Assembly: GCA_016930255.1 (NCBI GenBank)
Contig: JAFGHB010000074.1
Span: forward strand, 1 to 59,969
Direction of reading: 5' to 3'
From: Methanomicrobia archaeon
Lineage (GTDB): Archaea > Halobacteriota > Syntropharchaeia > Alkanophagales > Methanospirareceae
Length of the DNA stretch: 59,969 nt
The translations under genes and the position numbers were made by a program. The notes below the pieces were generated by a model, which was not told the origin of the DNA, ran no database searches, and was given only the letters and a program-made list of their open reading frames with translations. This document shows positions 42,192-44,734 of this stretch, piece by piece (position 1 is the stretch's first letter; each line of letters starts with the position of its first letter).

Positions 42192-43334
42192 ATGAACGTA
42201 TTGGTCTTCTTCAAGCCAGACATAAAGAAGCTGGAGGCAAAGAGTGATGTTACAGGCCTGACAAAGGCGTTAAAGGATGGAGATAAAACGGTTCGGTGGC
42301 GAGCGGCAGAAGCTCTGGGAAAGATAAAGGATATACGGGCAATAGGACCGCTCATTCAAACGCTTAAAGATAGGGATGACGCTGTTCGCGCGAGTGCCGC
42401 GTGGGCTCTTGGAAAGAGACGAGTGGAACGAGCGGTAGAGCCCCTCATTCACGCTCTGGAAGATAAAAGAGGGATTGTTCGCGCGAATGCCGCATGGGCC
42501 CTTGGCGAGATACAAGAGGGTAAGGCGGTAGAGCCTCTTATTCAGACTTTAGAAGATACTGAAGAGGATACAGTGGTGAGACGTCGGGCAGCAGAAGCGC
42601 TGGGTGAGATAAAGGATGTCACGGCGGTAGAGCCCCTCATTCAGATGTTCAAAGATGACGACGACGATCTTCGACGGTCGGTAACAGAGGCTCTTAGAAA
42701 GATAGGCACGCCTGCGGTCGAACCCCTCGTTCAGGCTCTGGAAGACGAAGATGAAGCCGTTCGCTCTGGTGCAGCAGCGGTTATCGAGACCCTAAAAGAG
42801 GCCGATACGTTTGAGCAAGAGAAACGCGAATTGAAAGTGCGTGATCTCAAACCAAAAACACGAGTGCCCGAGTTAGACGATTTGCAGTGGTATAACAAGG
42901 GACTCGATCTATACGAGCGTGGTAAATATGAAGAGGCGATACGATGCTTTGATAATGCATTAGAGAAAAATCCAGACTCTTATCACGCATTAAACAGGAA
43001 AGGAATAGCTCTGGATGTGATTGGTAAGTATAAGGAGGCCGTAGACAGTTATGATGCGGCTTTGAAGCTCAACCCCGGCGATGCGAGGGCTTTGAATAAC
43101 AAAGGACTCGCTCTGAGGCATCTTGATAGACTTGAAGAGGCTATAGAATGCTATGAGAGCGTCTTAAAGCTGGACCCCCGGGATGGAAGTGCGTGGAATA
43201 ACAAAGGAGTTGCGCTGTATGAACTTGGCAGCTATAACGAGGCGATACGATGCTACGATAAGGCACTGGAAATAAATCCGAGGGATGTTGATGCGATCTA
43301 TAATAGAAAATTGTGTTTGGAGAACGTCAAGTAA
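42192..43334 (+). CDS. HEAT-repeat and TPR-repeat fusion protein
   Basis: 380 residues. Residues about 15-205 are six HEAT/PBS-lyase units of 31-34 residues (consensus [27 protein letters not shown]). Residues about 220-380 are four TPR units of 34 residues ([29 protein letters not shown] and relatives). Both halves are protein-interaction solenoids; there is no catalytic or membrane segment, so it is likely a cytoplasmic scaffold or regulator. It starts at an ATG after GGGGG-type purines (42180-42185). The partner is unknown. It is a different repeat class from the HEAT protein at 26762. Confidence 0.85.
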
Positions 43335-43412
43335 AATCCCTGTTTAGTACGACCTCTTGCCGTTCCTCACTGCTGATTATAACCCTAATTGGAGCAATAA
43401 AAACAGGCTTTG

Positions 43413-43429
43413 CTCTTAAAGTCGAAAAA
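43413..43429 (+). repeat. 17-bp direct repeat, left copy
   Basis: CTCTTAAAGTCGAAAAA is repeated exactly at 44661-44677, the two copies bracketing the orphan gene 43584-44609 and its hairpin. A partial related sequence (TATATGGATTATAAAGTCG, 43576-43594) lies at the 3' end of that gene and resembles the right flank. The pattern suggests duplicated termini or a recombination footprint. Confidence 0.7.
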
Positions 43430-43530
43430 ATCAGGAACCGTAGAACTGGAACTATTTTTTTGATTGATAATACTTTTCTCCCTTGAAGAAAACCGAAAAG
43501 CTTTTATATGCGCTGTTAACATTATAAATA

Positions 43531-43577
43531 ATTGAGATTGGTCCCCACGGGGGTTAATCTCCTTCAATATTTTTTTA
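43531..43577 (+). terminator. Hairpin plus T-run (factor-independent-type terminator)
   Basis: GAGATT (43534-43539) and CCCC (43543-43546) can pair with GGGG (about 43550-43553) and AATCTC (43556-43561), and the stem is followed by a seven-T run at 43570-43576. It lies between the convergent HEAT-TPR gene and the orphan gene, so it can end the rightward transcript. The arms are long for an archaeal terminator, and a structured small RNA cannot be excluded. Confidence 0.55.
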
Positions 43578-43583
43578 TATGGA

Positions 43584-44609
43584 TTATAAAGTCGTTTGTT
43601 TATTTTTCTCGTCCATCAATTTGTACGCTTCTTCAACGCTTAAAACCTTGATTTCTCTGGAAGGATTTAGCCGCTCTACAAACTTCATTTTTGAATATCC
43701 TTCTTCATCCAAGCATATTATACAATCCCCCTTCTGTAAGGCAATCTGTTGGTTTACAAGATCTTCAAAGGATACCGATCCGCCCTCTTTTCCCGCAAAA
43801 TTTAAAAGTGATTGAAAGAAATCAGTCTCCCTAATAATCTTATTGTCTACCTCCTTAGATTTATGGATAAGAATAAGTGGATGGGGGAAGTGCCGTTCTG
43901 TTTTTAAGGAATGAGGATAGTCAGAAGCCAAATATTCGATCTCCGCATCTCCTACGAATTCTGTCTTGACAAATGCTGGTGTCCTATCTTTTAGCTGTTC
44001 GAATATTTCTTTAGCGTCAAAATGATGAACTGTTTTTCCAAGATATCCGCAAATGAGGTCACATAAAGAGATGCAAGGATAGGTTAGATCTCCGTAGGGG
44101 ACTATATTTATCTTCTCAGCTTTTTTTCCTATGAATTTCCATGCCTTGGTTATCTTTCCCGATATTCCATCTAAAGCGACATGTCCTGTAGTATCGAGAT
44201 AATTCCAATAATATCTCCAAACAGGTATAATAGGATAATAATTATGTAGCGTTTTTTCTAGAAAATCAAGTCCGTCTATTTGACCTTTAATAGTGTCTAC
44301 TTTATCAAACAAGAAGGTATCTGTTACGTAAATCCGCGTAACATTTTCAATTTTTAATAAACGTTCTGTTAATCCTACGTGTGCTTCATGTAGGTCGTAT
44401 GACGGTATTAGTTTTATGATATCTTCAGTTTTTAAAACGAATCGAGGCAGATTTATGTTATACTCTTCATAAAAATTCTTTATGATTTCAAAATAGTGCC
44501 TTCTAAATTCTGATTGCCCTTTGATTTCTACTGCGACCCCCGTAAGATTAACAAATTTGCCCCTCCGGATTATTCCAGAATCTGCAGCAACTATACAATC
44601 GCTGAGCAT
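43584..44609 (-). CDS. Orphan protein, possibly DUF3800/RNase H-like
   Basis: 341 residues that I do not recognise with certainty. The N-terminus CIVAADSGIIRRGKFVNLTGVAVE resembles the first acidic strand of DUF3800-type RNase H-like folds, and PCISLCDLICGYLG recalls their late alpha helix with a conserved Asp. In between are mixed helical and strand segments; the C-terminal part (CIICLDEEGYSKMKFVERLNPSREIKVLSVEEAYKLM) is separate. The gene is much more AT-rich than its neighbours and lies between two exact 17-bp repeats, pointing to acquisition by transfer. It may be a defence or mobile-element accessory gene, but that is inference. Confidence 0.65.
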   Translation of the reverse strand: MLSDCIVAADSGIIRRGKFVNLTGVAVEIKGQSEFRRHYFEIIKNFYEEYNINLPRFVLKTEDIIKLIPSYDLHEAHVGLTERLLKIENVTRIYVTDTFLFDKVDTIKGQIDGLDFLEKTLHNYYPIIPVWRYYWNYLDTTGHVALDGISGKITKAWKFIGKKAEKINIVPYGDLTYPCISLCDLICGYLGKTVHHFDAKEIFEQLKDRTPAFVKTEFVGDAEIEYLASDYPHSLKTERHFPHPLILIHKSKEVDNKIIRETDFFQSLLNFAGKEGGSVSFEDLVNQQIALQKGDCIICLDEEGYSKMKFVERLNPSREIKVLSVEEAYKLMDEKNKQTTL

Positions 44610-44660
44610 AATACATGAAATATTTTTTAAGTATTTAAACTTACTGCTATATGGATTTTA

Positions 44661-44677
44661 CTCTTAAAGTCGAAAAA
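44661..44677 (+). repeat. 17-bp direct repeat, right copy
   Basis: This is the exact second copy of CTCTTAAAGTCGAAAAA, 1,248 bp from the left one, in the same orientation. It is preceded by TATATGGATTTTA, which also resembles the sequence at the 3' end of the orphan gene. It lies just upstream of the orphan gene's start, so a promoter or regulatory role is also possible. Confidence 0.7.
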
Positions 44678-44734
44678 TTGATGGACTTCAGGTGCAAACG
44701 CTCATGAGGGGTAAAACCATGAAAAACCGGCAAA

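Follow-up and report, generated by a model that had tools for sequence, protein, structure and literature searches.

The orphan gene analysed here and a probable hairpin RNA at its 3′ side make up a previously undescribed pair, related to the DUF3800 protein-small RNA pairs that themselves await an explanation. Both lie within a unit of 1,296 bp (~1.3 kb, 43406-44701) in the window, by which we mean the whole stretch of 59,969 nt from a Methanomicrobia archaeon (assembly GCA_016930255.1, contig JAFGHB010000074.1). This unit is probably a compact, mobile two-gene module whose genes converge, one encoding a DUF3800-like protein of RNase H fold and the other the hairpin RNA (Table 1). The protein family and its fold, the conserved acidic residues, a covarying RNA with a promoter box at a fixed spacing, the tight co-inheritance of RNA and gene, their sporadic distribution and the change of locus were all computed here.

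Table 1. Position, strand and basis of the features assigned to the unit in the window.
Feature	Position	Strand	Basis
Left end of the unit (GGCTTTGCTCTTAAAGTCGAAAAAATC), containing repeat copy 1 (43413-43429)	43406..43432	+	Same end in G019, in G014 and at G000:C11
Predicted BRE/TATA promoter box of the small RNA gene (GAAAAGCTTTTATA)	43495..43508	+	Box end 25 nt ahead of the hairpin
Predicted ~45-nt small RNA: hairpin (43534-43561), then T7 (43570-43576, likely terminator)	43532..43576	+	Conservation, covariation
DUF3800-like RNase H-fold protein, 341 aa	43584..44609	-	Alignment, AlphaFold, Foldseek, dN/dS
Likely promoter box (GTTTAAATAC region) for the protein gene, whose start codon is ~21 nt away	44630..44641	-	Inferred by reading of the sequence
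Repeat copy 2, a subterminal motif at the right end	44661..44677	+	Exact 17-mer match
Degenerate right terminal inverted repeat (GCGTTTGCACCTGAAGTC vs GGCTTTGCTCCTAAAGTC)	44684..44701	-	4 mismatches of 18

The first-pass annotation had called the gene product unrecognised, and so it remains: the gene has no curated family, and searches of Pfam, NCBIfam, PHROGs, PADLOC and the PDB sequences yielded nothing convincing for the protein. Weak matches to Specificity_I, pyruvate kinase, Trp-tRNA ligase, EF-hand and others were isolated and unsupported, the ABC-transporter matches G342 and G363 (E 0.002-0.004) were false, and phage matches at E 0.6 were disregarded. Single-sequence scans of genome contigs and viral contigs returned no relatives; those described here were recovered via six-frame profile searches. 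Given as fractions of the species sampled, homologues were found elsewhere in the same phylum, in 16 of 394 haloarchaeal genomes and 3 of 59 genomes of another class, in addition to one Halobacterium plasmid. In the taxonomic family of the window, the gene is present in three of the 51 genomes, all belonging to one genus; gene content and kinship suggest that the window's host is an ANME-1-like methane archaeon. The protein family is archaeal, scattered and outside the curated collections (Pfam, NCBIfam, PHROGs, PADLOC), and the gene is under purifying selection, with a dN/dS of about 0.15. Most of its members are solo genes whose surroundings are unrelated to each other; some lie beside recombinase or type I restriction genes (neighbours judged by eye), and no consistent defence-island context was seen across members. 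The homologue on the Halobacterium plasmid pGSL19_54.9 (L113 8001-17083) has both ParA and a type I-B CRISPR-Cas operon within a few kb.

The alignment of 21 sequences revealed the invariant residues W131, D147, G151, P171, G173, D174, P178 and D184, along with a nearly invariant D10 and a likewise kept S181; the conserved acidic residues are D10, D147, D174 and D184. With these 21 relatives, AlphaFold predicted an RNase H fold with a pLDDT of 91.4 and a pTM of 0.91; with 5 close sequences the pLDDT was 39. Structural similarity search using Foldseek gave a DUF3800 protein as the top match among the viral models of BFVD (E 1.2e-5, probability 1.00) and Tk-RNase HII as the top match in the PDB (E 9.7e-4, probability 0.98). 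Comparison with archaeal DUF3800 by hhalign gave E-values of 2.4e-4 to 8.5e-4; four control families with no relation to it gave 0.12-0.30. Judged by its probability of 24-44%, the match to DUF3800 is weak. In this alignment, which leaves the strand-1 region outside, D147 and D184 are aligned with the Asp and AD motifs of DUF3800. Of the full DUF3800 motif set, comprising DESG in strand 1, a later Asp and a (Q)xAD helix, D10, D147 and D184 are conserved in the family, and the ESG and Q are not. Since the PF12686 model fails to detect the family, with no match at E<=1 among the 21 members and none in G000, G014 and G019, we call the protein DUF3800-like rather than a member of DUF3800. The two share the RNase H fold and probably a D...D...AD-type motif, but the new protein lies below PF12686 detection and, at ~340 aa, has an extra C-terminal region compared to DUF3800 of ~200-270 aa. 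The protein is a putative metal-dependent nuclease. Published work on DUF3800 itself predicts an RNase H fold showing a catalytic rearrangement and connects these proteins with putative ncRNAs (PMC10910872), and some type VI-F and V-A2 CRISPR loci are accompanied by DUF3800 (PMC12669027).

A strong hairpin had also been recorded by the first-pass annotation. Its presence is borne out (GAGATT-GGT-CCCC-ACG-GGGG-TT-AATCTC, 43534-43561), but its role as a probable partner RNA gene was overlooked. On sequence grounds the hairpin is best read as, and probably is, a separate small RNA gene on the strand opposite to the protein gene, the two being convergent, with the stop codon of the protein gene at 43584. 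Nearly every member has a hairpin beyond its stop codon, usually at a distance of 10-60 nt. Alternatively, it might be just the 3′ UTR of the protein gene or a bidirectional terminator, with no partner RNA at all, which we consider unlikely. Its location 22-50 nt beyond the stop codon of the window's gene, followed by a T-run on the + strand, would suit such a role. Folding energy alone leaves the strand unfixed, as 12 loci favour the proposed strand and in 8 of the 21 the sense strand folds better, which is again compatible with a UTR. However, archaeal terminators are mainly U-tracts, and the hairpin is more conserved than the coding sequence: across the three copies of the genus, 38 nt of the RNA stretch are identical, whereas the genes there are ~86% identical. 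Moreover, among the 51 genomes the RNA stretch was found, allowing up to 3 mismatches, only beside the protein gene.

The hairpin also covaries across distant archaea, which argues further against a mere UTR or terminator. In ten members, a common nine-pair stem is 83% paired, compared to at most 57% when slid, and shows 12 two-sided changes versus 5.0 +/- 1.8 in shuffles. The covariation score is 0.42 against 0.22 +/- 0.04 for shuffled alignments, and none of 500 shuffles reached the observed value; the alignment being small, this covariation supports the stem rather than proving it. The same holds against the UTR for a promoter box on the opposite strand at a fixed spacing. At nine of ten single-hairpin loci, the best BRE/TATA-like box on that strand lies 21-25 nt before the hairpin, whereas 3,000 shuffles gave at most five of ten. 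This shuffle test was restricted to the ten simple loci because the hairpin starts at multi-hairpin loci involved judgement; over all 21 loci, where the starts are thus partly a matter of judgement, 17 boxes are found at 21-27 nt. With Rfam covariance models at gathering score, no match was obtained in 12 family loci and no relevant match in the window region; matches above E 1 in the window were disregarded. Members from the non-haloarchaeal class (L110 and L148) have another hairpin in common, with a loop of AGACCA and a 12-bp stem, located farther from the gene.

This convergent arrangement is common to the Rfam-curated DUF3800-X sRNA genes, a further point against the UTR or terminator. 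Canonical DUF3800 loci of archaea served as a positive control: of 20 such loci, 13 carry DUF3800-X (RF02984). In all 13 the RNA is at the 3′ end of the gene and runs on the other strand, and for 9 of them the best TATA-like box is located 20-23 nt upstream. The control indicates that archaeal DUF3800-RNA pairs characteristically have a convergent layout in which the RNA has a promoter of its own. The archaeal DUF3800-X RNAs (L150-L176) are always convergent and mostly have a TATA-like box ~20-23 nt upstream, and by their sequence features DUF3800-X in these archaea is probably an independently transcribed sRNA. The strand of the new RNA is a prediction that draws on promoter spacing and on the analogy to DUF3800-X. 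The DUF3800-I to -XI RNAs, which reportedly go back to Weinberg et al. 2017, and the new RNA are alike in being small, structured and convergent at the 3′ end of the gene, with a promoter box ~20-25 nt upstream. The new RNA differs in having another, shorter hairpin that matches no Rfam family.

An RNase H-like nuclease, a conserved RNA adjoining its gene on the 3′ side and a mobile unit also call to mind TnpB and the omega RNA of IS607 or IS605 elements, so that the protein might be an RNA-guided nuclease of this kind with the hairpin as its scaffold. IS607 TnpBs, whose RNAs are RAGATH-18-derived, offer a precedent for discovering RNA-guided nucleases through RNA motifs that adjoin a nuclease gene (PMC11061315). 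We regard such a relationship as improbable in the present case. The protein has no TnpB family match, and no guide-bearing RNA was found on the sense strand. From the hairpin to the terminator the RNA does not vary from one species to another, and no variable guide was seen. In addition, omega RNA overlaps the sense 3′ end, whereas the RNA of this family is convergent with the gene. As the RNA is constant and has no variable part, a structural cofactor or inhibitor is favoured over a guide.

Type III toxin-antitoxin systems (ToxIN, CptIN, TenpIN) offer a different likeness, which concerns possible function, in that they too combine a protein and a small structured RNA as a mobile pair. In these systems, however, an array of repeats forms the RNA and precedes the toxin gene in the same orientation. 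By contrast, the present protein has an RNase H fold that is not of ToxN type, and the RNA is a single convergent hairpin with no upstream RNA repeats.

Taking the protein and the hairpin as a two-gene module, we propose that the protein, encoded on the - strand, would be a metal-dependent nuclease, and that the ~45-nt hairpin RNA on the + strand would be made from its own archaeal promoter and ended by the T-run terminator. The constant hairpin RNA would bind the protein and set its activity as a cofactor or inhibitor, and the pair might act like a selfish toxin-antitoxin or defence module; the RNA binding, the nuclease activity and the defence or toxin-antitoxin role are all inferred. More tentatively, and as a possibility we regard with some doubt, the family may represent a previously unrecognised class of RNase H-fold nucleases under RNA control, distributed thinly but widely among archaea. 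Each would be paired with a tiny hairpin RNA convergent with its gene, and the pair would work as a transferable toxin-antitoxin or antiviral module. DUF3800 proteins and their RNAs are known to occur together in genomes, with no function assigned to the association so far. That a second, strongly diverged protein family combines an unrelated hairpin with the same convergent layout and promoter spacing suggests that selection keeps the pairing itself. The members are small, some come from culturable haloarchaeal lineages, and the predicted 5′ end of the RNA and the catalytic residues are precise enough for direct testing.

The unit is mobile, as was surmised from the letters alone: sister species hold it at another locus, which is empty in a third species. 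In the window its neighbours are a GHMP kinase gene and a flavoprotein gene, two genes that lie side by side in G014, G015, G016, G018 and G019, whereas in G014 and G019 the unit sits between moaC and cysC, a junction that has no unit in G016 (98% complete). Its core-gene neighbours therefore differ among congeners, and both sites exist unit-free in other species. The HEAT/TPR repeat gene that adjoins the unit in the window (42192-43334) is likewise absent from the GHMP kinase/flavoprotein interval of five congeners, so the window's site gained, or the other genomes lost, two things. The insertion in G014 is surrounded by an exact direct repeat of 18-19 bp (AGCTTTTCTATTTTTTTCG), of which G016 has one related copy. 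The AT-rich composition reported for the gene and its sharp change are confirmed, with 35% G+C in the unit versus 49% in the window and 50% in a genome sample, and the gene is AT-rich at both chromosomal places.

The exact 17-bp direct repeats said to flank the gene are likewise real (CTCTTAAAGTCGAAAAA), and no other exact copy occurs in the 2.23 Mb assembly. Extended in register, the pair covers ~30 nt at 83% identity (43409-43438 and 44657-44686). In a shuffle test allowing up to 3 mismatches, two matches in the window were attained by 3 of 100 shuffles; two exact 17-mers are much rarer than what this test measures. A supposed partial third copy at 43576-43594 proved to be a mere 13-nt match (TATATGGATTATA / TATATGGATTTTA) and was given no weight. 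Both repeats represent fragments of a longer motif, GGCTTTGCTCYTAAAGTCGAAAAATT...GACTTTAGGAGC, that belongs to the ends of the element. An insertion scar, that is, an empty site with one repeat copy left, had been anticipated, but relatives lacking the unit at the window's site carry no repeat copy; the repeats were therefore rejected as a target-site duplication or attachment site. At the window's unit no target-site duplication was seen, and homology to relatives picks up again at about 44722. In G019 and G014, where the unit occupies a locus other than the window's, the full motif (end sequence GGCTTTGCTACTAAAGTCGAAAA) adjoins it immediately on the left. When inverted terminal repeats were tested, the left end was clear and the right end degenerate, and no further copy of the terminus was present in the ~289 kb genome sample.

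The same end motif bounds a 1.25-kb segment at G000:C11 (L091 1485-2750, motif ends 1494-2741), whose GGCTTTGCTC ends are inverted and which is flanked by a 9-bp duplication (GTGCCTACG); it also contains several subterminal repeats. Its cargo is different, consisting of two short ORFs (79 and 218 aa) without a known family, and the protein gene of the unit is absent; the segment is likely a mobile element carrying other cargo. This absence bears on whether the protein is the transposase or a homing enzyme of the element, with the hairpin and repeats as its recognition sites. RNase H folds do occur in DDE transposases, and the unit moves and carries end motifs. Nevertheless, we give this assignment little credence, because the same ends enclose a segment without the protein gene and no end motif was seen outside the loci of the window's genus. 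Moreover, the haloarchaeal members are solo, their pairwise DNA homology stops within ~80 nt of the gene, and nearly all carriers have one copy per genome. For the protein-RNA pair, we propose that it would be carried between archaea on mobile-element ends mobilised in trans. The gene copy in G014 has one in-frame TAG codon (L054 268-270) and is split across two contigs with a 12-base overlap, possibly through decay or an assembly fault.
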